Shown piece by piece: positions 11,428 through 35,019 of a stretch of DNA of 38,284 nucleotides. The position numbers and the translations under genes were made by a program. The notes under the pieces were generated by a model. That model was not told the DNA's origin. It saw nothing but the letters and a program-made list of their open reading frames with translations, and did not search any database. Within the stretch, counting starts at the first letter, position 1; the number at the start of each line of letters is the position of its first letter. The stretch lies in the IMG/VR virus record IMGVR_UViG_3300006802_000220, positions 1-38,284 of that record. One strand, written 5' to 3'. Origin of the DNA: a virus.

Positions 11428-11454
11428 GGGGGCGGTAACACGCCCCCGATTTTA
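11428..11454 (+). terminator. Intrinsic terminator after the coat/secreted protein pair
   Basis: GGGGGCG (11428-11434), loop GTAACA, CGCCCCC (11441-11447), followed by GATTTTAT. A compact G+C-rich stem with a short T-rich tail. It closes the capsid gene block and precedes the head-tail connector genes. Confidence 0.75.
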
Positions 11455-11475
11455 TACACAAGTCTGAGGAGTCAG

Positions 11476-11778: not shown

Positions 11779-11781
11779 CGG

Positions 11782-14038: not shown

Positions 14039-14071
14039 GGGGAACCTCCCAATTTGTAAGATAGGGGTAAT

Positions 14072-15358: not shown

Positions 15359-16752
15359 TGGCTATCCCGACCTACTACTCTTACGACCTCGGTACGGTAA
15401 CAGTCCCGGCGGGGAGTCTGGAGATCAAGCTACATTGTGAGGTATCAAGTCTCACGATACCTGATGGGATAGCGCGGACACTCCGGTTCCCCGACTTCAT
15501 CACTGAGCGGTACGTCATCACTGATGACGGGTCGGAGATGCAGAACACCAACGCGGAGTTCATAGAAGATTACTCTGAATACACGCAGGGGTTCTGGTTC
15601 AAGGTATTGACCGCAGGACACGCCGAACTTCAACTGCTTCTCGATGAGGGGGCCGGGGAAACGAGCTTCTTCTGGGGGAGGGTTATCGAGTTCGATAGCG
15701 GTTTCGAGGAAGTATCATTGGTGACAAGCAACATCATCCGGCGCGGTTCTTTCCGGCTGGCTGATGCCTTCACCGAACGGCTGAACGACATAACTGCGCT
15801 TGAACTATACAACGAACTGGATAACGCTTCATATTACACCGAGATCTCTAATGACCGGCTTGTGAATATGAAGTACATCTTTTCAGGTATGCTGAAGCTC
15901 GCCTTCGCACAGACAATAGACACGGCGGACATCACGCAGGATGCCGAAGCACTCCAGTATGAGGCCAATTCTGACTGGAGGAGCTTTCTTGATATGTGGG
16001 TATTCACGCAAGCCTTCGCGCTCGGCGTGTGGGGAACACACCCTAATTCATTCAACATCTGGGACGCAGACGGATGGAGCGCGCTTGATATTCTAAGGAT
16101 GATCTGCCGGGAGCATTGTATCTACCCGCGACACACGCAGGCTAATTCATCCGCTGACCACAAGATACAGTTCATAAGCAAGGGGGCAAGCGAGGGGTAC
16201 AGCACCTACATAACCGAGCCGCGGAAACCCTCGTCGAGCATCCTGTACGCTCCGAAGCACCCTACCAGTGTGCGGAACATCTGGATTGAGAGGGGGAACG
16301 GACTGGCGAACGCCATCATCATCGAAGGTGATCTCGTAACCCCCTCAGACGTACCAGACAATACCACATTCGATGTCAACCTCCGTATCGCCTTCAACAC
16401 CGGCGGGTATATGGACTATGTATCCGGTGGAGTTCTCTACAACCAGACCGATTACAGGTACTACGCTAACGGGTGGTCCTCCGGCACGACAACGGCTGAG
16501 TCTGCGGTGGCCCAGTTTATGAACGAGAACTGGGGATCTGTCCCTGCGACGTTGTACGGGTATGAGAGGATCTACCAGGGTATAGGGCTGGATGACGGAA
16601 CAACGGAGGAGCATGTTCACGCACATCTCGGCCCGGATACGTTTATCAGCATCAACGATGGTGTGGCAAGTAAAAACTTCGTGGCGATTGAAGTGGGGAA
16701 GAATCTGGAAACAAACCAACTGAAAGTTATCTGGCGGGAACTCGCAACGTAA
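15358..16752 (+). CDS. Baseplate/distal tail protein
   Basis: 464 residues, ATG overlapping the tape measure stop (TAATG). Position after the tape measure and before the tail tube candidate suggests a distal-tail or hub protein. It is mostly beta-strand with Trp-rich N-terminal third and middle ('SDWRSFLDMWVFTQAFALGV'), and later strands such as I-I-I-E-G-D-L-V-T. No enzymatic motif is visible. It is not a known lysozyme hub. Function by position only. Confidence 0.55.
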   Translation: MAIPTYYSYDLGTVTVPAGSLEIKLHCEVSSLTIPDGIARTLRFPDFITERYVITDDGSEMQNTNAEFIEDYSEYTQGFWFKVLTAGHAELQLLLDEGAGETSFFWGRVIEFDSGFEEVSLVTSNIIRRGSFRLADAFTERLNDITALELYNELDNASYYTEISNDRLVNMKYIFSGMLKLAFAQTIDTADITQDAEALQYEANSDWRSFLDMWVFTQAFALGVWGTHPNSFNIWDADGWSALDILRMICREHCIYPRHTQANSSADHKIQFISKGASEGYSTYITEPRKPSSSILYAPKHPTSVRNIWIERGNGLANAIIIEGDLVTPSDVPDNTTFDVNLRIAFNTGGYMDYVSGGVLYNQTDYRYYANGWSSGTTTAESAVAQFMNENWGSVPATLYGYERIYQGIGLDDGTTEEHVHAHLGPDTFISINDGVASKNFVAIEVGKNLETNQLKVIWRELAT

Positions 16753-16792
16753 GACGCAGGACATAGGAAAGCAGTTCGCTATCAAAACACTT

Positions 16793-16823
16793 GAGGCGGA
16801 GCCACAACAGGCTTCGCCTCTTT
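16793..16823 (+). terminator. Terminator-like hairpin before the putative major tail gene
   Basis: GAGGCGGAGCC (16793-16803) pairs with GGCTTCGCCTC (16810-16820), 11 pairs including one G-T, loop ACAACA. A TTTC tail is short, so it may be a weak terminator or a 3' stability hairpin. It lies just upstream of the next gene's ribosome site. Confidence 0.6.
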
Positions 16824-16843
16824 CGCTTCAAAGGAGACAATAA

Positions 16844-17767
16844 ATGGCATTTGCAGACAGTAAATCTTCCATCCTGACCGCCGGGATTTCTACCGTCAAG
16901 GTGAAGATCGCAGGGGATGCGGCTTACTACTCCATCCCCTATCTCACAGACGAAAGCACTCTGGAGGTGACGCAGATTTCATCCCAGAATGACCCGAAGC
17001 AGAGAGAGTACGGGTTGGCCTTTATGGTCAATATCAGGGCGGTCACGAGGGCGACTGACATCACCAACATGATAAAAGTCCTCCCGGAATTTGCGACAGC
17101 GAACGTCTTTGTCAAGGCCGACTGTATCAACGGGACGAAGTTCTACTCTGAGGACATCAACGCTACTACCGGATACATGGGGTGTACCGCCGAACTGATA
17201 AACGACGGGGATACCGACCGGGAGCGCAGGGTGGAGTTCAACTTCATGATGGCGGTAACAGCGGCAGAGTTCCAGACAGCGATCACCGGCTCAACGGCTG
17301 ACGGTACGCAGGCGGGCGGGGATGCCATCAACGAGTTCGCTTCCCTTGTCATATCCGACATCACCCCGGCGAGGATCGAGAGATTCGATATGAAGGAAAC
17401 GTCCTCCGGTACATGGGATGACGTTATCCGGAACCTGAGAGAAGGAACCTTCAGGGCGTCCCTCAGAGGGGAGTCGGATTCACGGAAACGGGTCAGGCCA
17501 AACCGATTCAGGATTGACTTCTCGGTTCGGTACATGCAGGCTTCATCGACCGAAGTGGCTCTCATTGACAACTACGCTACAAGGGAAAACGACTACCGCA
17601 TTTCGTTCCCCGATGGGTATGTGACGCTGAACGATAACTGCGGGATCAACTTCCGGTGGAATGTGGAGGGATCGGTCGACCAGAACGCATATATCACCAT
17701 AACGGGTGGCGGGGTAGTCCAGCCTTCAGCGTTTGCCGCCCTCTTTACAACGGGGAGTCCGGCGTAA
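16844..17767 (+). CDS. Putative major tail tube protein
   Basis: 307 residues, strong AAGGAGACAATAA before ATG 16844. Beta-rich with V-K-V-K-I-A-G-D-A-A-Y-Y and a repeat-like pair of strands, then 'GYVTLNDNCGINFRWNVEGS', compatible with a tail-tube fold. Tail tube genes are usually upstream of the tape measure; no such candidate is there, and this gene is the best fit, with a dedicated ribosome site and a terminator on its 5' side. The assignment is by elimination. Confidence 0.5.
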   Translation: MAFADSKSSILTAGISTVKVKIAGDAAYYSIPYLTDESTLEVTQISSQNDPKQREYGLAFMVNIRAVTRATDITNMIKVLPEFATANVFVKADCINGTKFYSEDINATTGYMGCTAELINDGDTDRERRVEFNFMMAVTAAEFQTAITGSTADGTQAGGDAINEFASLVISDITPARIERFDMKETSSGTWDDVIRNLREGTFRASLRGESDSRKRVRPNRFRIDFSVRYMQASSTEVALIDNYATRENDYRISFPDGYVTLNDNCGINFRWNVEGSVDQNAYITITGGGVVQPSAFAALFTTGSPA

Positions 17768-23008: not shown

Positions 23009-24809
23009 GCGAGCGTTCATTATTCTGGGATTTTCAATAATCGTGAACATCCTCGGAAATCGAACATACGCGGCTGACCCCACCTTCGTCACCACGTTCA
23101 ACTCCATCAGCATCTACTGGCTCCCCGCAGACCCTGATACAGGTAGCGCAAAGGCGCAGTCCATCCAATACTCTGAACTTGGTTCGGGGATATGGAAATC
23201 GGCACAGGCGATGGCGTGGGACTCGTCGAACGGGGCGGGGTTTCGTGGCTATCGCGGGTCTATCGTGTTCCTTAAAGCAGGAACCTCCTACGATATTGAT
23301 ATGCTGATAGGCGGGGAGAGCGGGAGTGCCTTCAGAGATACGGTAACGACATGGGCTGAAACTGATAACTGGACGATCTCAGCTACGACGGATGTGAACG
23401 GGGCGCAAAGTGGAACCTACGTCATCTCAACTGGGGGTAGCGGAGGGTACAGGCTCTACGATTTCACGGATGCGACCTTCGCGGCTTCCGGGGCCGATAC
23501 GAATATCGTTGTACGGTCAACTGCGGACAGCATCATCATACGCGGGGCATCCCCGACACAGGCTGGTGCGCTTGCCACAACACTTTCAGGTGCAGGGCGG
23601 TTCGGCATCTACATTGAAGCCGGGGCTACCGATGGGGTGATAGAGTACCTCGACATCTCCGGCTTCGGGACGGCTGACACAAATGTTTCCCTCGCTGAGA
23701 GCGGGATACACTTCGCAAACAATTCAACTGAGCGGTGGGTCATCCAGAGGAACAAGGTACATTCCCCGAACGGAACGAGTCTCAGGTGGCTCCACAGGAA
23801 GGACAACCTTTCGGCCGCCATCCATCCCGGCGGACCTTCGGCCATCAGTATGAATAACCCCGCATCGAACTCCAACTCCGTTGTGAGATACAACACGATA
23901 AGCGGGGGAGGGGATAACTGGGGGTCTAACGTCCAAAGACTGTTCAAGGACGGCATAACGACAGGCCCGGACCAGTCCCAGACCGGAGGGTTCAAGGATA
24001 CGGACATCTACGGCAACTCCTTCTCGTATATCGCTGACGATGCGGTGGAGAATGAAGGGCGCGGGATGAACGTAAGGCTCTGGCATAACTACACGAATCA
24101 CACATACATCTCCTATGCGTTCGCTTCCGTTTCGATGGGGCCATCCTATTTGTGGAGGAACATAGCGGACAACTCCAGGAGGGCTGACTATTACGACTCA
24201 ACAGACACAAGTCCGAACGGTTACGACCGTGGCCCGTTCCTGAAGGGCGGGGAGTCCGGGTCGAACACAGGATGGGTGTTCGTCTATCACAACACGATCT
24301 TGCAGGACACATCGGGCGGTGTGACCTACGGCAGAGGCCATAAACACTTCCTGAAGGATGACGGCGGGCCGTACTACAACTATACATCACGGAACAACCT
24401 CGTCACCCTGAACGCGGTCGCTACCCAACAGGTAATGGATGATGGGAGCAACGATGCTTCCAACACGGCTGACTACGACATGATTCAGGGGAACTATAAC
24501 TGTTGCGGGTCTGGGACTGGCTACAACCCCTCGAACGACACCAGCGCGTATCCGGCATTCAACGTAAGTGGAACGGGCTACCCCACGGTCGCAAGCGGTG
24601 ACTTCTCGCTTCAGAACGGAAGCACAGGGGAAGAGGCGGGCTTGGTTCTCGCTGAGATGTTCCAGCACAACGATAATACAGATCCAGCCATCGGCGCGAT
24701 GGAGAACACCCAGAACGCCCTTGAGTTTGGATACACGGCATACCTCAACCTTCAAGGCGGAGGCGGGGCAGTCTCAGGCAGATACCTTCTCATAGACAGG
24801 ACCAAATGA
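23001..24809 (+). CDS. Right-handed beta-helix protein with signal peptide (tailspike/lyase-like)
   Basis: 602 residues from TTG 23001, with AAGGAGG at 22984-22990. The N-terminus 'MTKRAFIILGFSIIVNILGN' then R-T-Y-A-A is a signal peptide. About residues 30-135 form a fibronectin-type N-terminal domain. A parallel beta-helix follows, with R-N-K-V-H-S-P-N-G, 'DTDIYGNSFSYIADDAVENE', W-H-N-Y and similar rungs. This layout is typical of polysaccharide-degrading tailspikes and of bacterial lyases. The next gene is a clear paralogue. No catalytic residues can be named with confidence. Confidence 0.65.
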   Translation: MTKRAFIILGFSIIVNILGNRTYAADPTFVTTFNSISIYWLPADPDTGSAKAQSIQYSELGSGIWKSAQAMAWDSSNGAGFRGYRGSIVFLKAGTSYDIDMLIGGESGSAFRDTVTTWAETDNWTISATTDVNGAQSGTYVISTGGSGGYRLYDFTDATFAASGADTNIVVRSTADSIIIRGASPTQAGALATTLSGAGRFGIYIEAGATDGVIEYLDISGFGTADTNVSLAESGIHFANNSTERWVIQRNKVHSPNGTSLRWLHRKDNLSAAIHPGGPSAISMNNPASNSNSVVRYNTISGGGDNWGSNVQRLFKDGITTGPDQSQTGGFKDTDIYGNSFSYIADDAVENEGRGMNVRLWHNYTNHTYISYAFASVSMGPSYLWRNIADNSRRADYYDSTDTSPNGYDRGPFLKGGESGSNTGWVFVYHNTILQDTSGGVTYGRGHKHFLKDDGGPYYNYTSRNNLVTLNAVATQQVMDDGSNDASNTADYDMIQGNYNCCGSGTGYNPSNDTSAYPAFNVSGTGYPTVASGDFSLQNGSTGEEAGLVLAEMFQHNDNTDPAIGAMENTQNALEFGYTAYLNLQGGGGAVSGRYLLIDRTK

Positions 24810-26401
24810 CAGTAATCCCTTCATATCACACAGCGAGCTTCTACCATAACGGCAACATCCCAAGCGTTACAGTCAACGGGAAGGTCTGGCGCAACGTCCA
24901 GTTTGACGGGACGGAAACCAGAGGGTCTATCTTCGGGCTTGAAGAGGGAACGGCCTACACCCTGACCTACAACGGCGGGTCGGTGTCGTTCACTACCCTT
25001 ACTGTCCCTGAGAGACCTCTGAGGACGCTCCCCTCTAACGGCATCATCACAGAATCTGGGCTTTACGAGAACGGGGAGATTTCAGGCAGGGACTATGGGC
25101 TACGGATTCAGGCATCGGGCGTAACCGTAAGGGGCTTCTCCATCCATGACGTTACAAGGTCTGGCATCCTGATAGAAAACGGGGTCTCGGATATTGTCAT
25201 CGAGGACTGCGACATCTACAACTTCGGCCCCTCTGCATTTCAATCCGGCTCAGATGCCGGAATCGCCTCTGACGGGTCTGCGGTATCGAGGGTACTCATC
25301 CAGAACAACCTGATACACGACCCGAACGGGGGCGCGACTTCATGGCTGGACGGTCACCCAGGTGGGACCATCGGGATACAGATGCAAAACCCCGGTGGGA
25401 GAATCGTCATCAGATACAACGAAATCTACTCCACCTATCCGCACTACTTCAGAGATGGGATGAGGGGCGGGGTGAACTTCTCCAACGAGGGCTTCCCCGG
25501 TCCTGACTCGGACATCTACGGGAACAAGGTCTCTCAGGTCTGGGACGATGCGATTGAGGTAGAGGGTGGCGGGAAGAACGTAAGGGTCTGGGAGAACTAC
25601 ATCACCAAGACCTTCACCTTCGTTGCCTGTGCGCCAGTGGCTATCGGTCCGCTCTATGTTGTAAGAAATGTATTCGATGAATCTCAGCAGTACGATCAAC
25701 CGGACTCTGATACATACCGAAGGGGTCCGGCAATCAAGGCGGGGGAAGGGAATGGAATTGGCAGAGGCAGAGCCTTCTTCCTGCATAACGTAACCTTACA
25801 GCGACCGCCTGAGCCGGGGAAGTCTGTATCCCTCGGTGCAAGGGGTGGCATCTACGGGAATGGAGGTGTGGTTTATAATCATGTCTCGCGGGGAAATATT
25901 TGGCAGGCAGAAACCACAAGTCGGAACGTCTTTACGAGAGCCTCCGATGGATCTAACAGCTATGACTTCGATGTTCTCGCAGGACGTTTGGGGGATGTTC
26001 CGGCGGGGTCTGAAGCCAACGGAGAAATCAGAAACACATATCTCCCCATCACAATCGACTTCGACGGACACCGAGGGACGTTCACGCCTGAGACAACGAG
26101 AGAGGTAGAGGATGTCGGCTTCGGGACTACGCCGGGGGTAACGGGTGAGATGGTATTCGGCGTGAGGGCTGAGGTTGTTGTCCCACCCATCTGTACGATA
26201 CAGGCGAGGAGCAGGAAGAGCAGAGTGAGAATAGATTGGACGAGTGAGAACGCGGAAACTGTACTGTTGAACGGAGAGCCGGTAGAACCCAGCGGCTTCC
26301 GTATGTTTCCTCTTGGGTTCGCAACCTATACGATCTCTGCGGCAAATTCAGGCGGGGCATCATCGGCATCCGTCACCGTCAGGGGAAGGATGGAGGAATA
26401 A
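24806..26401 (+). CDS. Right-handed beta-helix tailspike-like protein (no signal peptide)
   Basis: 531 residues, ATGA overlap with the preceding gene. It has the same rungs: N-N-L-I-H-D-P-N-G-G, G-I-Q-M-Q-N-P-G-G, I-R-Y-N-E-I-Y, 'PDSDIYGNKVSQVWDDAIEV', N-V-R-V-W-E-N-Y. It also ends with an Ig-like domain (about 455-531: S-K-S-R-V-R-I-D-W-T-S-E-N-A). It lacks any signal peptide. This is the likely virion tailspike, degrading or binding a surface polysaccharide, with the neighbour being its exported paralogue. Confidence 0.68.
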   Translation: MTVIPSYHTASFYHNGNIPSVTVNGKVWRNVQFDGTETRGSIFGLEEGTAYTLTYNGGSVSFTTLTVPERPLRTLPSNGIITESGLYENGEISGRDYGLRIQASGVTVRGFSIHDVTRSGILIENGVSDIVIEDCDIYNFGPSAFQSGSDAGIASDGSAVSRVLIQNNLIHDPNGGATSWLDGHPGGTIGIQMQNPGGRIVIRYNEIYSTYPHYFRDGMRGGVNFSNEGFPGPDSDIYGNKVSQVWDDAIEVEGGGKNVRVWENYITKTFTFVACAPVAIGPLYVVRNVFDESQQYDQPDSDTYRRGPAIKAGEGNGIGRGRAFFLHNVTLQRPPEPGKSVSLGARGGIYGNGGVVYNHVSRGNIWQAETTSRNVFTRASDGSNSYDFDVLAGRLGDVPAGSEANGEIRNTYLPITIDFDGHRGTFTPETTREVEDVGFGTTPGVTGEMVFGVRAEVVVPPICTIQARSRKSRVRIDWTSENAETVLLNGEPVEPSGFRMFPLGFATYTISAANSGGASSASVTVRGRMEE

Positions 26402-26405
26402 GGCC

Positions 26406-26678
26406 ATGCTTGAAAAATTGAACGGATGGGCGAAGGTGATTCTCACGGTTGTTCCGATGATGATTGGGATTGTCTGGGGATACGCCCAGTTGAACGCCGA
26501 GGTGGACAGTTTGAAGGCGAAGGTTGACTCGGCACAGGTGGAGCGCAAGGCTCTTGCCATTTCATCGGGGAAGGTTGAGACAGAGCAGGCGGTGACAAGA
26601 GAGCAGTTGCGTCAGATTATCGAGTCGCTGAAAGAGATCAAGGAAGATGTGAAGGACATCAAAAAAAAAGATAGGTGA
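26406..26678 (+). CDS. Membrane-anchored coiled-coil protein (lysis region)
   Basis: 90 residues from ATG 26406, with GGAGG 13 bases upstream. Residues 8-27 form one hydrophobic segment (W-A-K-V-I-L-T-V-V-P-M-M-I-G-I-V-W-G), followed by a charged coiled coil to the end. The last helix ends K-E-D-V-K-D-I-K-K-K-D-R. The layout suits an accessory lysis protein or the inner-membrane part of a spanin-like pair. It is the last gene before the promoter at 26710. Confidence 0.5.
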   Translation: MLEKLNGWAKVILTVVPMMIGIVWGYAQLNAEVDSLKAKVDSAQVERKALAISSGKVETEQAVTREQLRQIIESLKEIKEDVKDIKKKDR

Positions 26679-26709
26679 GCCTTCGCAGAAAATTATCTGA
26701 TTGCGCCCC

Positions 26710-26738
26710 TTGACATCATAGTATCCAAGCGTTACAAT
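26710..26738 (+). promoter_or_regulatory. Consensus promoter upstream of lysis and glycan cassette
   Basis: TTGACA (26710-26715), 17 bases, TACAAT (26733-26738), a near-perfect sigma-70 promoter in a 119-base gap. Predicted start is near 26745, only about 10 bases before the stem of a strong terminator, so untreated transcripts would be about 50 bases long. Unlike the other two rightward promoters it has no GTTTG element. Confidence 0.75.
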
Positions 26739-26754
26739 GCGGCCACTCTTCTGA

Positions 26755-26797
26755 AGTGATGTCGGGCCGACAGCGGCCTGCGGCATCACTTTTTTTT
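26755..26797 (+). terminator. Strong intrinsic terminator immediately after the 26.7 kb promoter
   Basis: AGTGATG and CGGGCCG on the left pair with CGGCC..CG and CATCACT on the right, giving a stem with an outer 7-pair arm and inner 5-pair arm around loop ACAG. Eight T follow the stem. It would stop most transcripts starting at 26745 and also those reading through from upstream. Confidence 0.8.
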
Positions 26798-26986
26798 ATG
26801 TATAAGGTCAGAGATGAAATACTGATGTCGCTTCCGGATGGTGAGCGTGTCCGGAAGGCGATAGCGAGAATCAGGGCTGAGGACGAGGCCAAGCGGTTGA
26901 AGGAGGAAGCTGAGGAACGTGAGAAATCAGAGAAGTACCTGAGAATGTTAGCCAAAAGATACAACAAACAAAGGAGCAAAGCATGA
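26798..26986 (+). CDS. Small charged helical protein
   Basis: 62 residues if begun at ATG 26798, which directly follows the terminator's T run and so lacks a visible ribosome site. An alternative ATG at 26825 would give 53 residues. The product is almost all helix with heptads of Arg, Glu and Lys ('KRLKEEAEEREKSEKYLRML'). No membrane segment. It could be a regulator or structural accessory of the lysis genes; nothing specific. Confidence 0.5.
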   Translation: MYKVRDEILMSLPDGERVRKAIARIRAEDEAKRLKEEAEEREKSEKYLRMLAKRYNKQRSKA

Positions 26987-27177
26987 GTTTCTGGGAATGG
27001 CTTTCCGGCAAAAAGACGGTGTTCGGGGCGATCATCCTGCTCGTCGTTCAGTTGGTCCCGCCCGATGTTGTCCTGTTCGGGTTCCTGAACGTGGCAGAAG
27101 CCCTGCTGTGGTTGGGGAATATCCTCGCCACGACTGGCGTCGCCCATAAGGGCGTGAAAGCGGTAGCCAGTAAGTAA
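26983..27177 (+). CDS. Holin-like small membrane protein
   Basis: 64 residues, ATGA overlap, AAGGAGCAAAGC before the start. Residues 12-35 ('TVFGAIILLVVQLVPPDVVL') and about 36-54 form two hydrophobic helices with a Pro-Pro turn, then a basic tail H-K-G-V-K-A-V-A-S-K. Size and topology fit class II holins, which open the inner membrane so the endolysin can act. Several other small membrane proteins follow, so which one times lysis is unclear. Confidence 0.6.
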   Translation: MSFWEWLSGKKTVFGAIILLVVQLVPPDVVLFGFLNVAEALLWLGNILATTGVAHKGVKAVASK

Positions 27178-27309
27178 ATGAACTGCGGGTGCATCGAGGG
27201 CGGTGCGTCACTCAGACGTTTGTGCGGGGGTGGATACGCATGATACGAAGCCATCAGCACAGCCGAGCGACCTGGACACTCGCAACCTTTATCCTTTTGA
27301 AAGGGAGAC
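27178..27309 (+). other. Short stretch without a convincing gene
   Basis: A 21-codon frame with several Cys (27178-27243) begins right after the holin-like stop, and its stop overlaps an ATG at 27240 that opens a frame running to 27389. Neither has a ribosome site, and the second overlaps the better-supported tiny gene at 27310 in another frame. I leave the stretch unassigned. Confidence 0.4.
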
Positions 27310-27396
27310 ATGAATACACTTCTTATAGCCGGGGCGTTGGTGCTTGGCATCATCGTCTATGCTATCCTTCTCGCCACAGACCGGGATGAGGATTGA
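27310..27396 (+). CDS. 28-residue single-pass membrane peptide
   Basis: ATG 27310 follows AAAGGGAGAC. The product is M-N-T then a 20-residue hydrophobic helix (L-L-I-A-G-A-L-V-L-G-I-I-V-Y-A-I-L-L-A-T) and D-R-D-E-D. Its TGA overlaps the TTG of the next gene. Such miniproteins are often antiholins or membrane regulators of lysis, but here this is context only. Confidence 0.55.
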   Translation: MNTLLIAGALVLGIIVYAILLATDRDED

Positions 27397-27959
27397 ACTG
27401 GGATGAGCTATTAGATAGCATCGCCTCTAAGGGGTGGCCCTACCTTCTTGTGGCTATCGTTGTAGCGGTAGCCGTCTGGATACAGCGGGACAATCACTGG
27501 CAGGCCGTCATCGAGAACGCCCCTGTCACGCGGGACAGCGTGGTAGTTCGTGATACGGTCTCCCTCCCTCCAGTGGTTGCTCCCGCTCTTATTGACACCG
27601 TAGAGATTACGGTCATTGATTCAATCATCGCGGCCTTTGATTCCACTGAAATCAGAGAGCTTGTTGCCTACCTTGCTTCACCCGCCTACATCGACACCCT
27701 GATAACCTTCGAGGACTACGCCTTAGACCTGAGAGTAGATTACTCTCCCATCTACCGGACGTTCCGCACAAGCCATGATTTGTACGTCAACCGTGAGATG
27801 ATAACGGAGACACGGCTTATCTACAAGGAACCTGAGTGGTGGCAGAAGTCTCTCATGGTCGCAGGGGCTTTGGCTGTCGGGTATGGGGTAGCGAAGGAGG
27901 ACTGGTGGGTAGCAGGGGCGGGGGCTGTAGGGACGACAATAACGCTGGTGACGTTTTGA
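27393..27959 (+). CDS. Membrane protein of the lysis region, spanin-like layout
   Basis: 188 residues from TTG 27393 (TTGA overlap). Helix at residues about 16-30 ('GWPYLLVAIVVAVAVWIQ'), then about 100 residues with a strand-rich pattern (R-D-S-V-V-V-R-D-T-V, L-P-P-V-V) and a hydrophobic pair near the C-terminus (about 152-188). The central T-V/D-T pattern is reminiscent of small phage proteins (such as DUF6808) that may act as spanins in Bacteroidota phages. I put this at low-to-moderate certainty. Confidence 0.45.
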   Translation: MNWDELLDSIASKGWPYLLVAIVVAVAVWIQRDNHWQAVIENAPVTRDSVVVRDTVSLPPVVAPALIDTVEITVIDSIIAAFDSTEIRELVAYLASPAYIDTLITFEDYALDLRVDYSPIYRTFRTSHDLYVNREMITETRLIYKEPEWWQKSLMVAGALAVGYGVAKEDWWVAGAGAVGTTITLVTF

Positions 27960-28591
27960 CTGAAACCCGCTGGCACGCGCTCTCTGCGAGTTATATGCTC
28001 CTTCTCCCGATTATCGCATTGGGGGCTTACCTGAGATTCTCGCAGTTGGATAACCCCGTCTGGATAGATGAAGTCCTGCCTCATACGTGGGAGAGAGAGC
28101 AGTTGCCGTACATCTTCAGTCTCTTCTTGCCTCCTGGTGATTTCTGGCTCAGACTCCCCTCAGCCTTATTCGGGACGCTCACCATCTGGGCGGTGTTTGA
28201 GGCGATAGAGGACAAGGGGATAGCTCTGGGTGCGGCTCTCTTCGTTGCGGTGTTTCCCTTGTTTGTGTTCTGGAGTACGCTCGCTCGTCCGTATTCGATT
28301 GCGGGGTTCTTCGTGGCTATCGGCTGGCGGTGGCGCGCCGGGTACATACTCGCCCTTCTGTGTACCCCGCTCGCCATCCTCGGCTTTCATTTCAATGACT
28401 GGAAGTGGATAGCGGTCGGGTTGGTCATCTGCATAGGGTTGTTCCTGATTCGGCCTGATACGGACAGGAGCTTTCTCGATTACAACTTTCTCACGAACGC
28501 CCGGAGGATCTATGTTCCGTTCTGTGTGGGGCTGGTTCTACATCTTGGTATGTACTCTGCTCGCATTGGACGCTTCATCTCTGAGGACTGA
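27956..28591 (+). CDS. GT-C-type polyprenol-linked glycosyltransferase, compact form
   Basis: 211 residues from TTG 27956 (TTGA overlap). Multi-pass membrane protein. After the first helix comes L-R-F-S-Q-L-D-N-P-V-W-I-D-E, whose D-E in the first outer loop is the catalytic site of GT39/GT83 (PMT/ArnT) enzymes. Then 'FWLRLPSALFGTLTIWAVFE' and F-W-S-T-L-A-R-P-Y follow, both marks of that superfamily. Normal members have 450 or more residues, so this is a shortened relative lacking the usual later helices and soluble part. It would transfer a sugar from a polyprenol carrier to a glycan outside the cytoplasm. A second small gene follows in another frame and may supply the rest. Confidence 0.65.
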   Translation: MTETRWHALSASYMLLLPIIALGAYLRFSQLDNPVWIDEVLPHTWEREQLPYIFSLFLPPGDFWLRLPSALFGTLTIWAVFEAIEDKGIALGAALFVAVFPLFVFWSTLARPYSIAGFFVAIGWRWRAGYILALLCTPLAILGFHFNDWKWIAVGLVICIGLFLIRPDTDRSFLDYNFLTNARRIYVPFCVGLVLHLGMYSARIGRFISED

Positions 28592-28871
28592 GAGCTGGTA
28601 TTCGGGATACGTCCACTTCTCGGACTGGAGAGGGAAGCCGCCTGTAACATGGGCGACCAATCCCGCGGTGTCGATGTACTACTCAGGTGGAAGCCCGAAG
28701 AGTCTGAGAGGGGAAGTTGAACTAAGGCCGGGGGATATTTTAGGCATAGACTACTATGCGCTGATGATTCCTCCGCTTGTGAACGGAAGGCCGCTTCTCC
28801 CGGTTGAGTTCCATCGGACGTTCGCAGATACGCTGTCAAAAGGTGCAGTCATAATCCTTCAGGTAGAATGA
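28512..28871 (+). CDS. Membrane-anchored protein overlapping the GT-C gene
   Basis: 119 residues. Its ATG lies 80 bases inside the GT-C gene in another frame. A single N-terminal helix (W-G-W-F-Y-I-L-V-C-T-L-L-A-L-D-A) anchors a strand-rich domain ('YSGYVHFSDWRGKPPVTWAT', L-R-P-G-D-I-L-G-I-D-Y-Y). It may be the periplasmic part of the GT-C enzyme, split off, or a separate partner protein. No known family is certain. Confidence 0.5.
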   Translation: MFRSVWGWFYILVCTLLALDASSLRTESWYSGYVHFSDWRGKPPVTWATNPAVSMYYSGGSPKSLRGEVELRPGDILGIDYYALMIPPLVNGRPLLPVEFHRTFADTLSKGAVIILQVE

Positions 28872-29815
28872 GTATCAAAGACACCATAGGCCAGTACATC
28901 AACGGCGTTCAGTTGAACATCGACCTCGTGAACGCCTGTTGCCTCGCCTGTCCGTCCTGTGCGGTAGGGTCAATCGCTACCAAGCGGAAGGGCGTGATGT
29001 CCATCGACCTCTTCAGGAAGATCCTGGACAAAGCAGACAGGGAGATGAAGATACGGCGGGTCATGCTCTACGTCTATTCCGACCCCTGTATGCACAAGGA
29101 CTTACATCTCTTCGTTCAGGAGTGTACCGACAGGGGGATAGATACGTGGATCTCCACCATGCTTCAGTCCACCAACTGCGACTTCGAGAAGGTGATAGAG
29201 GCAAGACCTACGGAGTTCAGGATAAGCTATCCCGGTCTGGAGCAGATGTCTTACTACCAGTCCAAGAACGCCGACCCTGAGAGGTTCCTTGCGAAGCTGA
29301 AGAGTGTCGCCAAGCTCCCCCGGCACAAGGAAACCACATGGACGCTCTTCTTCCACCACTACAAGGATAACGGACACGAGATAGAGCAGGCCGAGCTTTT
29401 CGCAAATCAGTACGGTCTGAAGCTCGTGGTCATCCCGGCTATCTTCATGCCGTTGGAGAAGTTCGTGAGGCATGATTACTCCGAAGCAGACCTTGGACTT
29501 ATATCGAGACTCTGGGAGACACCGGAGGAAGCCACAGCGAGAATGAAGCGGACAAAGGATTGCGTTCTCTGGAAGCAGTTGACCCTGGACGCCAACGCTG
29601 ATGTGTTCCTCTGTCAGTTACTCTACAAGGAAGAGTTCAAGCTGGCGAACTTCCTGCATACGCCATGGAGGGCGATTCAGAAGATGATGAAGTCTCACCC
29701 CTTCTGCGGAGACTGTTTGAAGAAGGGCGGGAACCAGTATCAGTTATGCTACGCTCCCCCCGCTGAGTCCTTAGACCCCGTAGGTGAAGCCAACAAGAAG
29801 CGGAGGACATGGTGA
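28868..29815 (+). CDS. Radical SAM enzyme with SPASM-type C-terminus
   Basis: 315 residues, ATGA overlap. N-A-C24-C25-L-A-C28-P-S-C31 holds the CX3CX2C [4Fe-4S] motif (C24, C28, C31). The TIM-barrel region follows. The C-terminus has C232, C249, C280-x2-C283 and C294, a SPASM/twitch arrangement for an auxiliary cluster. Such enzymes modify peptides, sugars or lipids by radical chemistry; related ones sit with glycosyltransferases in bacterial surface-polysaccharide loci. Here it is followed by two methyltransferases and a GT9 enzyme, so sugar modification is the best guess. Confidence 0.8.
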   Translation: MSIKDTIGQYINGVQLNIDLVNACCLACPSCAVGSIATKRKGVMSIDLFRKILDKADREMKIRRVMLYVYSDPCMHKDLHLFVQECTDRGIDTWISTMLQSTNCDFEKVIEARPTEFRISYPGLEQMSYYQSKNADPERFLAKLKSVAKLPRHKETTWTLFFHHYKDNGHEIEQAELFANQYGLKLVVIPAIFMPLEKFVRHDYSEADLGLISRLWETPEEATARMKRTKDCVLWKQLTLDANADVFLCQLLYKEEFKLANFLHTPWRAIQKMMKSHPFCGDCLKKGGNQYQLCYAPPAESLDPVGEANKKRRTW

Positions 29816-30381
29816 AGCTGATACCCATGTACGGCGACCGCATCATCCCCTTCTCCGAGCCGGGGGATGATAACGACATCAACTTCAACAAGGGTAAGAG
29901 AGTCCAGATAGTCAGAGACTTCATCGGGATGGACCTTCAGAACCTCAAGACCTTAGACATCGGTGCGCCCAATGCCTTCGGGAAGCTCTTAGGCATCAAG
30001 GATAACACCCTGAGAACCGACCTGAACGACGAGCTTCATGCTCCCGATAAGGACTACGACCTGATTCTCTTCTCTGAGATACTGGAACATCTGATGAACC
30101 CCCTCATGGCTCTGAGAAGCTGTCACGACCTCCTGAAGCCGGGAGGGATACTGATTGTATCCACTCCAACCCCTAACAGGTTCTTCATCCAGAGTCCATC
30201 ACATCTCACCGAGTACCGACCGGACAGGCTGGTTCAGATGCTAAGGTGGGCGGGGTTCGAGGTCTTGGACTACAAGAAGTTCTGCATCTGGGATAAGAGA
30301 TTCATGTTCTACGGCATCAGACCCTTCCTCCGGGTTCTCTTTCACAGAAGCCAACTCTGGAAGCTACGGAAATGTTCTTAG
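29809..30381 (+). CDS. SAM-dependent methyltransferase (class I), cassette copy 1
   Basis: 190 residues, start ATG 29809 overlapping the radical SAM gene. Motif I is T-L-D-I-G-A-P-N (48-55). 'YDLILFSEILEHLMNPLMAL' and L-K-P-G-G-I-L-I-V-S-T-P are the usual SAM-methyltransferase motifs (E-H plus L-x-P-G-G). It ends with G-I-R-P-F-L-R-V-L-F-H-R-S-Q-L-W, shared with the next gene. The substrate is probably a sugar or lipid of the surface glycan. Confidence 0.78.
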   Translation: MVKLIPMYGDRIIPFSEPGDDNDINFNKGKRVQIVRDFIGMDLQNLKTLDIGAPNAFGKLLGIKDNTLRTDLNDELHAPDKDYDLILFSEILEHLMNPLMALRSCHDLLKPGGILIVSTPTPNRFFIQSPSHLTEYRPDRLVQMLRWAGFEVLDYKKFCIWDKRFMFYGIRPFLRVLFHRSQLWKLRKCS

Positions 30382-31001
30382 GCCGAGACCCAAACCCTGA
30401 GAAGGGAGTCAAGGGGCAACGTGGGAAGCTGAAGGTCTATGACCTGAACGGGGCTATACCGTTTTCCGGGCATTTCACGGCAGACAAAGACGCTGAGAAC
30501 AACAAGCACAGGCTAAGAGTCTATCGGAAGTTCATGGGGGTTCAGGACTTCGAGGGGCGGAAGGTCTTGGACATAGTGAAACCGAACTACATCTCAAGGG
30601 AACTGAAGATAGCCTACAACACGGTCGGGGATCTGAACAAAGGCGTGAGGCCGAGACCGGATGATACGGACTTCGACATCATCACATCCTTCGAGGTCTT
30701 TGCCCATGTGATGAACCCGCTTCTCCTGACTCAGGAGTGCTACCGCTTACTGAGGCCCGGAGGGACGATGTACTTAGGGACACCGCTTCTCTGGCTCATC
30801 CCCTGGTTCCACGGCAGGGGGAACTTCACGGAGTACAAGAAGGACCGTGTTCAGATCATCCACGAGTACGTAGGATTCAAACCTGTTAGATACGAGTGGC
30901 ATAACCCGTGGCACTGGTGGTTCATCTTCAACGGGATAAGGCCTCCGCTCAGATACCTTCACAACAGATTCCAACTGTGGGAACTACGAAAGCCCTCGTA
31001 A
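30372..31001 (+). CDS. Methyltransferase-fold paralogue with altered motif I, cassette copy 2
   Basis: 209 residues, overlapping copy 1 by 10 bases. Motif I reads V-L-D-I-V-K-P-N (65-72), where the Gly after D-I, usual for SAM binding, is replaced by Val. The rest matches: 'FDIITSFEVFAHVMNPLLLT', L-R-P-G-G-T-M-Y, and a C-terminus G-I-R-P-P-L-R-Y-L-H-N-R-F-Q-L-W. Copies 1 and 2 came from a tandem duplication. Copy 2 may be inactive, bind a different ligand or form a heterodimer with copy 1. Confidence 0.7.
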   Translation: MFLGRDPNPEKGVKGQRGKLKVYDLNGAIPFSGHFTADKDAENNKHRLRVYRKFMGVQDFEGRKVLDIVKPNYISRELKIAYNTVGDLNKGVRPRPDDTDFDIITSFEVFAHVMNPLLLTQECYRLLRPGGTMYLGTPLLWLIPWFHGRGNFTEYKKDRVQIIHEYVGFKPVRYEWHNPWHWWFIFNGIRPPLRYLHNRFQLWELRKPS

Positions 31002-31846
31002 TAGACTGGAACTTCATCGGTGACTGCATCATGTCATCCCCCGTATTCCCTGCGCTCAAATCGAAATACGACCGCGTGGATGTGGTGGGCTATGAGTTCT
31101 GTAAGGAGGTCTTTGAGGCGAACCCCTACATCGATAACATCTACACCGGGGAGAAACTTACAGAGATGTGGGAGGCGAGGAAGAGAAGGTACGACCTTGT
31201 TCTTCAACTCAACACTTCGTTCAAGACTAATCTTCTGATGATGATTGCCGGGAAGAAGCGGTTGGGATATTCCGTTGGGCTGAAGGGGCTTCCTCTGACC
31301 ATCAGGTATCCGGTAAGATACAAGACCGCCCAGAAGGGGAACCGGATAGACGAGTGCATGACGTTACTGACGGCTATTGGCATCAGAGGGGAATATGGTG
31401 GCCCGATATTCCGGTTAGAGAAGAGGATGAGGAGGCAGGAGCATTTCGTTGGCTTCCATGTCAACCCCAGAAACACTCAGGATGCGAGAAGGTGGGACAA
31501 GTGGAGACAGCTTGCGTGTACCCTCAGAGCAAGGGGTTATCGGGTGTTCTACTTCGGGACAGAAGAGGACTTCGGCTACATCAGGTCGGTGGATAAGGAA
31601 GCGGAGATTGCCTACACCCCGACCTTACAGGCGTTAGGTTCCTTCCTCACGAGGTTAGGGAAGTTCGTCTGCGTCAACTCCGCTCCGATGCACTTGGCTG
31701 GTACTTTGAGCGTCCCTACGGTAGCCCTTGTGGGCGGTACGCCTTCCAGGGTGGTCTGCAATTACCCCACAGTGAAGCCGATAGAAGGGGAGGGGCTGGA
31801 CATGAGCGCAATCTCGGTGGAGGACGTACTTGCGGAAATTGATTGA
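30977..31846 (+). CDS. Glycosyltransferase family 9 (heptosyltransferase-like)
   Basis: 289 residues from GTG 30977, which lies 25 bases inside copy 2. W-N-F-I-G-D-C-I-M-S-S-P-V-F-P-A-L-K at the start and V-C-V-N-S-A-P-M-H-L-A-G-T-L near the end are both GT9 signatures (the second lines the donor site). GT9 enzymes add ADP-heptose or related sugars to the lipopolysaccharide core on the cytoplasmic side of the inner membrane. Its length (289) is a little under the usual 330-350. In this cassette it may alter a surface glycan of the infected host. Confidence 0.8.
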   Translation: MGTTKALVIDWNFIGDCIMSSPVFPALKSKYDRVDVVGYEFCKEVFEANPYIDNIYTGEKLTEMWEARKRRYDLVLQLNTSFKTNLLMMIAGKKRLGYSVGLKGLPLTIRYPVRYKTAQKGNRIDECMTLLTAIGIRGEYGGPIFRLEKRMRRQEHFVGFHVNPRNTQDARRWDKWRQLACTLRARGYRVFYFGTEEDFGYIRSVDKEAEIAYTPTLQALGSFLTRLGKFVCVNSAPMHLAGTLSVPTVALVGGTPSRVVCNYPTVKPIEGEGLDMSAISVEDVLAEID

Positions 31847-31958
31847 GTGGGTAGTGCTTGCCTTGATTGTAGCGGGTATCGTGTGGTTCTGTAATGAGTA
31901 CCTCGGCCCTAACTATGAAATGATACTGGACAAACCGCCGTGGAAATGGGACTTCTGA
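31830..31958 (+). CDS. Small single-pass membrane protein
   Basis: 42 residues from TTG 31830, with GGTGGAGGAC upstream. A helix of about 15-20 hydrophobic residues (W-V-V-L-A-L-I-V-A-G-I-V-W-F) is followed by E-Y-L-G-P-N-Y and a C-terminus reading D-K-P-P-W-K-W-D-F. The next tiny gene ends with a similar Trp/Pro-rich tail. Confidence 0.55.
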   Translation: MRKLIEWVVLALIVAGIVWFCNEYLGPNYEMILDKPPWKWDF

Positions 31959-32050
31959 TATTGCTTGCCATATACGCCATCTGTTCGCTGGTGTGGATCC
32001 TGGGATTCTACTGGCGGGATGAAAAAAAACCGTGGGACTACCCGCTGTGA
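31946..32050 (+). CDS. Small single-pass membrane protein, second of pair
   Basis: 34 residues, ATG 31946, overlapping the previous gene's end. L-L-I-L-L-A-I-Y-A-I-C-S-L-V-W-I-L-G-F is a single membrane helix, then W-R-D-E-K-K-P-W-D-Y-P-L. Its last base pairs overlap the GTG of the next gene (GTGA). Confidence 0.55.
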   Translation: MGLLILLAIYAICSLVWILGFYWRDEKKPWDYPL

Positions 32051-32229
32051 GCGAGTACAAGAAGATAGAGAACGGCGACAGGGTTATCGTGCCAAAACGA
32101 TACCTCAAGATTGCCTGCTGTGACTGTGGCTTAGTCCATACCTACCAGTTCAGGATAGTCAAGGGAAAGGTGACGTTCATCGTGAAGAGAGACAACAGAG
32201 CGACAGCGAACATACGGAGAGCGCGTTGA
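32047..32229 (+). CDS. Small CxxC-bearing protein common in phages
   Basis: 60 residues from GTG 32047 (GTGA overlap). The core 'IACCDCGLVHTYQFRIVKGK' with F-I-V-K-R-D-N-R-A-T-A-N and final R-R-A-R is a pattern I know from many short phage proteins of unknown function. The C-C-D-C-G element suggests metal binding with a distant partner. No function is assigned. Confidence 0.65.
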   Translation: MSEYKKIENGDRVIVPKRYLKIACCDCGLVHTYQFRIVKGKVTFIVKRDNRATANIRRAR

Positions 32230-32402
32230 AGATACAGCCCTGTCCTAAATGCGGGAAAGCCAAGCTGACAGAGATAAAGTCCAGAAAGAAGGGTCCGCAT
32301 TACGGATGGGTGCTGTATTACGCCGTGGAGTGTAAGTGCGTTCACATGGTCATCGCCGCGACCAAGAGGGAGGCGATAACGAACTGGAACAAGCCGAAGT
32401 GA
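32226..32402 (+). CDS. Lar-like zinc-ribbon miniprotein
   Basis: 58 residues from TTG 32226 (TTGA overlap). Q-P-C-P-K-C-G-K-A near the start, V-E-C-K-C in the middle and E-A-I-T-N-W-N-K near the end give the pattern of the Lar/phage zinc-ribbon family, more compact than the early Lar-like gene at 2997. Antirestriction is a family possibility only. Confidence 0.6.
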   Translation: MKIQPCPKCGKAKLTEIKSRKKGPHYGWVLYYAVECKCVHMVIAATKREAITNWNKPK

Positions 32403-32563
32403 AGCAGATACTTCTCGACCCCAAGATATTCAATTACGTGATAATGGTTCTGTATTTCCTGAACGCCGTGAGGTGGCTGATAGACGGGAAGATAGCGGAC
32501 GTATGTTACTGGTTGTCCGCACTCGCTATAACTGCCACGGTCACGTTCCTGTATAACCATTAG
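32399..32563 (+). CDS. Small two-helix membrane protein
   Basis: 54 residues from GTG 32399 (GTGA overlap). Two hydrophobic segments, I-F-N-Y-V-I-M-V-L-Y-F-L-N-A-V and 'CYWLSALAITATVTFLY', joined by a polar turn. Its sequence resembles short phage membrane proteins of unknown function. It could influence lysis or exclusion. Confidence 0.55.
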   Translation: MKQILLDPKIFNYVIMVLYFLNAVRWLIDGKIADVCYWLSALAITATVTFLYNH

Positions 32564-32576
32564 AGGAGAGTAAGAG

Positions 32577-32924
32577 ATGCTGAGTACAAGAGCAGAAGAA
32601 TTGCTTTTGACGGTGACGGGGGATAAACGCGCGCTCCTTCTGGAGATGCTCGAAAGCATCATCACGAAGTACGCCCACGGTGCGAGGGACCACGGGATGG
32701 ACATTGACGACATCCCGAACATTGACGAACTCATATCCGAGGTGGAAGATCAGCTGGCGTATCTCAGGCAGTACCGGAGAATCCTGGTGCGCGCTCTCGT
32801 GCTGATAGACGAGGGGAACCATCAGGGAGCGAGGAACATTCTGGCGAGGCAATTCAAGGCGAAGGCAACACATCTCGACCCCGGCTTCAAGCATGAACTG
32901 GAACGAGCAACGAGGGATGAATGA
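32577..32924 (+). CDS. Hypothetical helical protein
   Basis: 115 residues, ATG with GAGGAGAGTAAGAG before it. Helical throughout, with I-D-D-I-P-N-I-D-E-L-I-S-E-V-E-D. No membrane segment or known motif. The last residues L-E-R-A-T-R-D-E are repeated at the end of the next gene through a DNA repeat. Confidence 0.55.
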   Translation: MLSTRAEELLLTVTGDKRALLLEMLESIITKYAHGARDHGMDIDDIPNIDELISEVEDQLAYLRQYRRILVRALVLIDEGNHQGARNILARQFKAKATHLDPGFKHELERATRDE

Positions 32925-33241
32925 TGATAGCGTTATTACTGTTACTCCAGTTTGCTCCGACGGCCCATGCCCAGAGAACCTTTGAGGACTCAACGGGTTT
33001 CTATCTCATACGGTTCGACTACGATACTGGATGGGCCTTAACCCCGTCGACCTATCCGCCGGGGCAACCGCACTACACATCCCTTATTACAGTCCTCCAA
33101 GTGATAGACGGAGAGACGGGGGCTATCGGTGAACCCTTTTGGGGGGTTTACACGGAGGGTGGGTGCTTTGAGGATAACCCTGAGACCTTAGTGCAATGGG
33201 CGAAGAAACTACTCGCGGAACGAGCAACGAGGGACGAGTGA
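32900..33241 (+). repeat. 25-base direct repeat at two successive gene ends
   Basis: GGAACGAGCAACGAGGGA-yGArTGA occurs at 32900-32924 and at 33217-33241, with 23 of 25 bases the same. Both copies cover the last eight codons and stop of a gene (E-R-A-T-R-D-E). The 32921-33241 gene lies between them like an inserted unit. Confidence 0.85.
32921..33241 (+). CDS. Small protein with signal peptide before the endolysin
   Basis: 106 residues, ATGA overlap. The start MMIALLLLLQFAPTAHA-Q is a signal peptide. The mature part is strand-rich with Tyr/Trp, no known enzyme motif, and a C-terminal helix ending E-R-A-T-R-D-E. It may be a periplasmic factor linked to lysis. Confidence 0.55.
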   Translation: MMIALLLLLQFAPTAHAQRTFEDSTGFYLIRFDYDTGWALTPSTYPPGQPHYTSLITVLQVIDGETGAIGEPFWGVYTEGGCFEDNPETLVQWAKKLLAERATRDE

Positions 33242-33705
33242 CCCGCACAGAAGTCTTTGACATCTGCAAGCAGATAGCACCGCGGTACGATTACGACCCC
33301 GTGTTGATACTCGCGGTCTGCGAACAGGAATCTGCTTACGACCATCAGGCGGTGAGACTGGAGAATAATTTTCTCCGCAGATACGTTGACCCGATGGGCT
33401 TTGCAACAACCGTAAAGGTGTTGTTTTCAACGAGTTACGGGCTGATGCAGGTAATGGGTCTGAGTCTCTATGAGATGCAGTTCTTCGATGCTCCCCTTCA
33501 GGTTCACTACAACAAATGGGTTCCGCATCTGATAGACCAGTTTATGGTTGACCCCCGCTCTCAGATTGAGATGGGGTGCAAGTGGCTGAAGAGGAAGCAG
33601 GGAACGAGGACGTTAGACGAAGGGCTGAAGCGGTACAATGGTTCAAGTCTGTATCCAGCCCAAGTGTTCAGGCGATACGACAAGCTGAAGGTGATATACG
33701 GTTGA
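33238..33705 (+). CDS. Endolysin, SLT-type lytic transglycosylase
   Basis: 155 residues from GTG 33238 (GTGA overlap). 'DPVLILAVCEQESAYDH' carries the catalytic Glu (E31, followed by Ser), S-Y-G-L-M-Q-V-M is the second conserved motif, and Y-N-G near the end the third. These are the three marks of the goose-type/SLT fold that cuts peptidoglycan between the glycan sugars. No signal peptide, so it needs a holin for release. The size is right for a single-domain phage enzyme. Confidence 0.85.
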   Translation: MTRTEVFDICKQIAPRYDYDPVLILAVCEQESAYDHQAVRLENNFLRRYVDPMGFATTVKVLFSTSYGLMQVMGLSLYEMQFFDAPLQVHYNKWVPHLIDQFMVDPRSQIEMGCKWLKRKQGTRTLDEGLKRYNGSSLYPAQVFRRYDKLKVIYG

Positions 33706-34082
33706 CTAAATCCTCCGGCGCATGGCGAGAATGTAGTCTCTACATCAGAGAGAGAGACAAGTACATCTGCCAGTTCCACAAACTCTGCAAGGAGAAGGGG
33801 ATAAAGCCCCCCTGTGGCTGTACTACCGTGATGCAAGCCTGCCACAAGATAACCAAAGGCCGAGGGGCTGGCCTGAAGTGGGATGAGAGAAATATGTTCT
33901 GCGGGTGTGCGGGGTCTAACGTCTATGAGCGACACAACAGAGACACGATGCAGGCTATCTTCCGTCAGTTGTGGCCTGAAGATTACGAGTACCTGGAACG
34001 ACCCAGAAAGCCCGTGAAGATGGATTTAGACGCTGTGAGATTGTATTACCAACAGAAGCGGAGAGAGCTTGACAAAAGGTGA
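33702..34082 (+). CDS. HNH endonuclease-like protein (NinG-type)
   Basis: 126 residues from TTG 33702 (TTGA overlap). R-E-R-D-K-Y-I-C-Q-F-H-K-L-C, then C-G-C, 'QACHKITKGRGAGLKWDERN' and M-F-C-G-C form the Cys pairs and the H...N pattern of HNH nucleases, similar to the NinG/Rap branching nuclease of lambdoid phages. It may cut recombination intermediates made by the ERF/SSB pair. Assignment rests on motif spacing. Confidence 0.7.
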   Translation: MTKSSGAWRECSLYIRERDKYICQFHKLCKEKGIKPPCGCTTVMQACHKITKGRGAGLKWDERNMFCGCAGSNVYERHNRDTMQAIFRQLWPEDYEYLERPRKPVKMDLDAVRLYYQQKRRELDKR

Positions 34083-35019
34083 AATAGCGATAAGGCTCAT
34101 CGAGGAACACCCTGACTGGTCGAAGAAGAAGTTAGGCGAGTATCTTCATGCCAAGCACCCAGACCTCTTTCCTTCCGCTGAAAGGGCGAGGAAGGTTGTG
34201 CGGGTTGTAACCGGAGCGGCGGGGGAGGAGTCCAGAAGGAAAACATGGAGGACAACGGACAAGTGGCGTGGCGTTCCCGCTCCATCCAAGCACGATTACA
34301 GTAGAGTCCAGCTACCCCCCGGCAAGATTGGCCTGCTCTATGATGTCCACATTCCGTTCTACGACCCCGAAGCCTGCGAGATCGCCCTTACCTACCTTGA
34401 ACGCTACAAGCCTGATACCCTGGTACTCGCCGGGGATATTCTGGACTGCTATCATGTGTCCTCCTTCGTGAAAGACCCGTTAGAACGAAGGATGAGCGAG
34501 GAGATAGACATTCTCAGGGACTTCGTATCCATGCTGAAGCGGACGTTCAAGGCGAGAATCATCTATCAGCTTGGGAACCATGAAGAGAGATGGGAGAGAT
34601 ATATCCTGACCCAAGCCCCGGCAATCTTCGGGATAGATGCTTTCGACTTCGAGAACGTGATGGATCTTGACGTTGAGATTGTGAAGAACAAAAGAATTAT
34701 CGAGGCAGGGAACCTTCACATCTTACATGGGCATGAGTTCGGGCGGTCGATATTCTCTCCTGTCAACCCCGCCAGAGGTCACTTCATGCGAGCCAAGACA
34801 AGCGTTATCGGCGGACACTACCATCAGTCCTCGGAGCATATAGAAAGAGACCTGAGCGGGAAGATTATCGGCGCGTGGTCTGTGGGCTGTCTCTGCGAGT
34901 TGACCCCGAAGTATATGCCCATCAATAAGTGGTCACACGGCTTTGCTACTGTTGACCTTGACAGTGACGGGAGTTTCGAGGTCAGGAACCTGAAGATCAT
35001 CAACGGGAAAGTCCGTTAG
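34069..35019 (+). CDS. Metallophosphoesterase with N-terminal helical domain
   Basis: 316 residues from TTG 34069. The first about 70 residues look like a helix-turn-helix type domain ('LIEEHPDWSKKKLGEYLHAK'). The catalytic part has L-L-Y-D92-V-H94, L-A-G-D123-I-L-D, G-N-H171-E, H-G-H222 and G-G-H-Y-H252, the full calcineurin-like two-metal set. It removes phosphate from protein or nucleic acid; the target is unknown. Beside an HNH/NinG-like gene it recalls the lambda nin region, which also carries a phosphatase. It overlaps the HNH gene by 14 bases. Its end overlaps the convergent gene below. Confidence 0.8.
   Translation: MTKGEIAIRLIEEHPDWSKKKLGEYLHAKHPDLFPSAERARKVVRVVTGAAGEESRRKTWRTTDKWRGVPAPSKHDYSRVQLPPGKIGLLYDVHIPFYDPEACEIALTYLERYKPDTLVLAGDILDCYHVSSFVKDPLERRMSEEIDILRDFVSMLKRTFKARIIYQLGNHEERWERYILTQAPAIFGIDAFDFENVMDLDVEIVKNKRIIEAGNLHILHGHEFGRSIFSPVNPARGHFMRAKTSVIGGHYHQSSEHIERDLSGKIIGAWSVGCLCELTPKYMPINKWSHGFATVDLDSDGSFEVRNLKIINGKVR

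Follow-up and report, generated by a model that had tools for sequence, protein, structure and literature searches.

Alteration of host surface sugars by phages is best known from temperate seroconverting phages. In the gtrABC modules of P22-like and Shigella phages, a GT-C-type membrane transferase uses a polyprenyl-linked donor sugar. LPS-related and radical SAM genes have precedents in marine phages (PMC7029224; PMC7150976), where the host-recognition region of pelagimyophages holds gene cassettes of the LPS and radical SAM kinds (PMC7029224). A heptosyltransferase gene has been reported in a huge phage (PMC10747093), and a plasmid block of Brachyspira hyodysenteriae combines radical SAM, glycosyltransferase, epimerase and rfbC genes (PMC4267127).

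The sequence studied here, IMG/VR virus record IMGVR_UViG_3300006802_000220 (38,284 bp, referred to over its whole length as the window), carries a cassette of six consecutive ORFs on the + strand at 27956-31846 (Table 1). As in the gtrABC modules, a GT-C-type membrane transferase and a polyprenyl-linked donor sugar would be used; unlike them, the cassette is sited in the lysis region and has no gtrA or gtrB, no integrase was detected in the record, and GT9, radical SAM and methyltransferase genes are present in addition. The absence of gtrA and gtrB, pointed out in a preliminary description of this DNA, was borne out, no gtrA or GT2 family match being obtained among the cassette genes with Pfam, PHROGs or NCBIfam. 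The pelagimyophage cassettes likewise hold LPS-type glycosyltransferases and radical SAM cargo and are thought to alter the host surface; however, those cassettes, compared here by description only, belong to large myophages and consist mostly of GT8 genes close to the tail fibres (PMC7029224), whereas the genome of the present phage is small and its GT9 and GT-C-like genes are sited within the lysis region. The Brachyspira hyodysenteriae block, also compared by description only, is a surface-saccharide locus of mobile DNA in which radical SAM and glycosyltransferase genes are closely packed, but belongs to a bacterial plasmid and not to a phage. The viral contigs L011 and L012 bring together a radical SAM gene, a GT2 glycosyltransferase and a truncated methyltransferase without motif I near phage structural genes (terminase and portal adjoin); they differ from the cassette in having no GT9 or GT-C gene, in the presence of UDP-galactopyranose mutase (Glf) and in a radical SAM protein with a SPASM match that is about 28% identical over part of its length. 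The twitch radical SAM dehydrogenase BtrN has, like the cassette protein, a CxxxCxxC motif and four cysteines for an auxiliary cluster, and the folds match at E=4e-08, but it is only 13% identical and its substrate is an antibiotic intermediate instead of a surface glycan. Sugar-modifying cargo is known in phages and the enzyme families are known; the combination of genes, which was not found elsewhere, its position in the lysis region and the reduced methyltransferase pair are new. The reading favoured here, with slightly more confidence than doubt, is that the cassette modifies an envelope glycan of a Gram-negative host late in infection, the glycan probably being LPS or a related lipid-linked saccharide.

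Profile searches showed that the record encodes a terminase, a portal, a Gp13-like major capsid protein and a minor tail protein, and a replisome organizer gene is also present. No integrase was detected in the 38,284-bp record using Pfam. The source is an uncultured, probably lytic phage, and its record may not be complete. From another metagenome, a 12-kb contig (L002) is 99.99% identical over window positions 2062-14211 and a further contig (L003) is 75.6% identical over 4520-17034; both stop short of the cassette. The window also encodes a metallophosphoesterase (34069-35019; PHROG 221, E=4e-37), and a scan with this protein for a near relative spanning the cassette returned just a 39%-identical relative on a short viral contig (L087). 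The six overlapping genes previously placed in the phage late region were confirmed on the + strand with phage codon usage, each cassette gene scoring like the neighbouring phage genes in the phage's own usage. Successive overlaps, from the 188-aa TM protein through the 39-aa TM ORF, measure 4, 80, 4, 7, 10, 25 and 8 nt. Coupling to phage genes is seen at both borders, the TTG at 27956 overlapping the stop of the 188-aa gene and the 39-aa ORF overlapping the GT9 stop; a weakly Rz-like gene (E about 0.007) and a holin-like gene precede the cassette, and the SLT transglycosylase follows it. On the strength of the codon usage and the gene overlaps, the cassette looks resident in a co-expressed late operon rather than a recent or chimeric insert. 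An assembly chimera was thought unlikely given the phage codon usage and the coupling at both borders, the junctions being known from one assembly. Good ribosome-binding sites were identified for ORF2 (CGGAGGAT) and MT1 (CGGAGGAC). The count of promoter- and terminator-like sites across 26400-33800 was not above that of shuffled sequence; within this chance-level total, one promoter-like site (26710-26738, 11/12 matches) directly precedes the lysis and cassette genes.

Table 1. Genes of the cassette and of the adjoining lysis region (window coordinates).
Feature	Coordinates	Strand	Basis
Holin-like small protein, two TM segments, upstream of cassette	26983..27177	+	ORF, hydropathy
188-aa protein, N-terminal TM helix, possibly spanin-like, lysis region	27393..27959	+	Coupled to cassette start
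Compact GT-C-like (PMT_2-like) membrane protein, 211 aa, TTG start	27956..28591	+	Sub-threshold PMT_2, hydropathy, motifs
ORF2, 119 aa	28512..28871	+	ORF, N-terminal TM helix, own ribosome-binding site
Radical SAM enzyme, predicted twitch type (single auxiliary cluster), 315 aa	28868..29815	+	Relatives, cysteines, AF2
MT1, reduced class I methyltransferase-like protein, 190 aa, motif I LDIGAPN	29809..30381	+	Pfam
MT2, MT1 paralogue, 209 aa, motif I LDIVKPN, possible pseudo-enzyme	30372..31001	+	Pfam, phmmer
GT9 glycosyltransferase (heptosyltransferase family), 289 aa, likely GTG start	30977..31846	+	Pfam, NCBIfam
39-aa TM ORF overlapping GT9 end	31839..31958	+	ORF call
SLT lytic transglycosylase, endolysin candidate, downstream	33196..33705	+	PF01464 E=1.1e-05

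Of the families initially proposed for the six products, GT9, a pair of paralogous methyltransferases and a radical SAM enzyme were upheld, while a full SPASM enzyme was not, GT-C is weak and the membrane-anchored partner (ORF2) is without a relative. Judged by its sequence, the last product belongs firmly to the GT9 family (PF01075, E=2.7e-15, 56.8 bits against a Pfam cut-off of 22), with heptosyltransferase III, RfaQ and heptosyltransferase II as its best NCBIfam models, none of which reached the heptosyltransferase equivalog cut-off (51.7 bits versus 170.2). Its start is likely the GTG at 30977 (289 aa) and not 30908. The N-terminal IGD motif is kept and aligns with that of WaaF (PDB), and in the C-terminal donor motif (DSG..MH) the protein has Asn (NSAPMH) where solved relatives have Asp. 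A search of INPHARED with GT9 returned six records at 22-24% identity; the two with annotation are bacterial contigs, in which the match is a bacterial heptosyltransferase II gene, and the other four are unannotated. For the first product, the compact GT-C membrane glycosyltransferase originally suggested remains a weak assignment from sequence: a PMT_2 match is present but below threshold (E=0.0055, 17.4 bits, Pfam cut-off 26.1), only four hydrophobic segments pass a simple hydropathy cut, against the many TM helices of GT-C enzymes, and the motifs WIDE (an acidic motif after TM1), RLPS and ARPY, recognised by eye, lend it support. ORF2 has one N-terminal TM helix followed by about 95 aa, presumably periplasmic, and matched none of the families of Pfam, PHROGs, NCBIfam or PADLOC. 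Fold prediction, which had been recommended for the whole set, yielded a good AF2 model of the radical SAM protein (pLDDT 87.7, pTM 0.86) and an unusable single-sequence model of ORF2 (pLDDT 41.5). Two separate genes were preferred to a frameshift fusion, since ORF2 is read in the +1 frame with respect to GT-C and is preceded by a good ribosome-binding site of its own. In the 80-nt overlap (28512-28591), the frames of the GT-C end and the ORF2 start each encode a hydrophobic stretch.

Both methyltransferase-like proteins match PF13489 above the Pfam cut-off of 27 (MT1, 46.6 bits, E=4e-12; MT2, 29.7 bits, E=7.5e-08) and are paralogous (phmmer about 1e-29, 37% identity), in keeping with their earlier description as two related methyltransferases. 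However, the GxG SAM-binding loop of motif I is absent from both (LDIGAPN in MT1 and LDIVKPN in MT2 versus LDIGCGxG), as is the segment that follows motif I, and methyltransferase activity is doubtful because the canonical SAM-binding glycine motif is absent. The best relative of MT1 in the set is a bacterial radical SAM-methyltransferase fusion (L060). A defence system was considered and rejected, PADLOC having given just a weak match to the generic methyltransferase part of mad2. The loss of motif I from MT1 and MT2, the sub-threshold PMT_2 match, the shortening of the GT-C-like and GT9 proteins and the Asp to Asn change are consistent with a partly decayed cassette, in which GT9 and the radical SAM enzyme have been retained and the methyltransferases and the shortened GT-C/ORF2 pair are remnants of little function. 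Decay is nevertheless considered unlikely, as stops or frameshifts would be expected whereas the six frames are intact, the codon usage is phage-like and the overlaps are tight.

The identity of the radical SAM protein is firm, with 73 bacterial relatives, invariant cysteines and a good AF2 model; the Pfam radical SAM match itself (E=0.00075) is below cut-off. Seven cysteines are invariant in 52 sequences, comprising C24, C28 and C31 of the CxxxCxxC motif that the superfamily carries in a partial TIM barrel (SAM cluster) and C232, C249, C280 and C283 (auxiliary cluster). A SPASM domain has two auxiliary clusters and about seven C-terminal cysteines, only four of which are invariant here, and the match to PF13186 (E=0.18) is below cut-off. 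The four-cysteine pattern fits a twitch domain, the one-cluster form of SPASM; in BtrN the auxiliary cluster has four Cys ligands (PMC9012708). The protein is therefore assigned from its sequence to the twitch type, like BtrN, with one predicted auxiliary [4Fe-4S] cluster, in place of the radical SAM/SPASM enzyme reported before. Foldseek searches with the AF2 model gave BlsE and BtrN, which use sugar- or cyclitol-like substrates, as the best matches, and also anSME, CteB, MoaA, SkfB and EpeE; the modelled fold alone does not tell a sugar from a peptide substrate. In a tree, the branch leading to the protein is very long and lacks a close bacterial source that would mark a donor lineage, and three phage sequences do not form one group.

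The bacterial relatives of this protein sit in polysaccharide loci. Scanning 84,980 species genomes with a profile identified 73 radical SAM loci, and a descriptive tally, made without a matched control set, of 142 neighbouring ORFs from 40 loci showed methyltransferases (4 TylF and 4 RMNT_CmcI among them), GT2, GT41 with TPR, ABC-2 transporters and epimerases as the commonest neighbour families, with Wzt, GT4, DegT and hexapeptide transferases at single loci. Aminotransferases and sugar O-methyltransferases also belong to the polysaccharide genes that surround these relatives. Relatives at 27% and 25% identity were found in a plasmid search; one plasmid relative lies in a Methylocystis exopolysaccharide cluster with a MurJ-type flippase and an O-antigen ligase, and a deltaproteobacterial plasmid carries three radical SAM copies in a row near a perosamine synthetase. 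In L060 (9965-12061), the radical SAM domain is fused to a complete class I methyltransferase and two glycosyltransferase genes adjoin. The same enzymes might instead glycosylate tail or capsid proteins of the phage's own virion late in infection, as the late position of the cassette after a beta-helix tail protein (24806-26401 of the same record) and its translational coupling with late genes would allow; however, GT-C and ORF2, with its TM anchor, imply action at a membrane, lipid-linked saccharides are the substrates of known GT9 enzymes and the radical SAM relatives occur in polysaccharide loci, so that a virion target appears very unlikely. Radical SAM-dependent modification of a peptide (RiPP-like) or protein, with the sugar enzymes unrelated, would agree with the Foldseek matches to the maturases anSME, CteB, SkfB and EpeE and with weak NCBIfam matches to cofactor and peptide maturases, but is judged highly improbable: no precursor-like gene was recognised, one auxiliary cluster is predicted as in BtrN and not two, and the genomic context of the relatives is again that of polysaccharides.

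Single-sequence scans of IMG/VR gave no close relatives of the radical SAM, MT1, GT9 or GT-C proteins, and no radical SAM or GT-C relatives were found in INPHARED phages. Profile scans of IMG/VR yielded 19 contigs with radical SAM relatives; together with the published pelagimyophage cassettes (PMC7029224), these make it too strong to call a radical SAM enzyme uncommon in a phage. The gene lies directly after endolysin and spanin-like genes in L089 (9989-11149), near RecT and terminase genes in L088, and beside thymidylate synthase and DNA polymerase genes in L010/L091. A near-related radical SAM gene is found near an endolysin in L096 (747-1916), L089 and L096 sharing the lysis-region position of the window. 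The viral contig L099 (4645-12849) combines a nitroreductase-like gene and a gene for a DegT aminotransferase with two or more radical SAM genes, one of which has a SPASM domain, possibly as a biosynthetic cassette, and in the related viral contigs L101 and L103 multiple radical SAM genes are found close to a DnaB-type helicase. GT9 was present in 0 of 22 related or radical SAM-bearing virus records, and relatives of GT-C, ORF2 or the methyltransferase pair as a block were likewise not found, many of these 22 records being fragmentary. The lack of GT9 in all 22 indicates that the six-gene block is not a conserved unit as far as could be searched, and the co-conservation by which the preliminary description had proposed to judge the cassette was not found. 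Matches to DNA- or peptide-modifying proteins had likewise been named as counting against a glycan role; there was none to DNA modification, whereas the Foldseek matches include peptide maturases. Some phage DNA hypermodification pathways employ radical SAM enzymes and glycosyltransferases, but the attachment of sugar or alkyl groups to bases by this cassette is extremely improbable, as the record has no thymidylate synthase-type hydroxymethylase and no match to such families, the operon has membrane proteins and its position is late, not early.

Modification of an envelope glycan, the role first proposed for the cassette, retains support from GT9, from the radical SAM relatives in polysaccharide loci and from the L011/L012 block, and loses that of six-gene co-conservation; the L060 fusion beside glycosyltransferase genes, the fold matches to BlsE and BtrN, the coupling to the lysis region and the published cassettes with radical SAM and LPS genes also speak for it; the points against it are the unconserved block, the lost SAM residues of MT1 and MT2, the Asn of GT9, the sub-threshold GT-C match and the peptide-maturase fold matches. 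We infer its substrates, order of steps, target (LPS) and benefit as follows. On the cytoplasmic side, GT9 would extend a lipid-linked core with a sugar taken from a nucleotide donor, a sugar hydroxyl would be oxidised or epimerised by the BtrN-type radical SAM enzyme, and MT1, if still active, would cap a sugar by O-methylation, MT2 serving as its partner or as a regulatory paralogue. On the periplasmic side, the GT-C-like protein would transfer a polyprenyl-phosphate-linked sugar, with ORF2 as its membrane-anchored periplasmic partner. Action at the end of infection is suggested by the lysis-region position and the absence of a detected integrase, and the benefit would be the escape of progeny from trapping on receptor-bearing cell remains, not lysogenic seroconversion. 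The preliminary description had offered the blocking of rival phages as another conceivable benefit. A more specific proposal, quite unlikely as a whole, is a receptor-masking operon in the lysis module of a lytic phage, in which a radical SAM dehydrogenase or epimerase and GT9 would rewrite a lipid-linked glycan of the host shortly ahead of lysis, through radical oxidation of a surface sugar, and the methyltransferase paralogues would work without the usual SAM-binding loop. We are aware of no published case of such chemistry in a phage. The cassette represents a phage setting for a widespread, polysaccharide-associated radical SAM group, of which no characterised member was found here. If the envelope-glycan reading is true, a sugar operon among lysis genes with no detected integrase would point to receptor masking at release.
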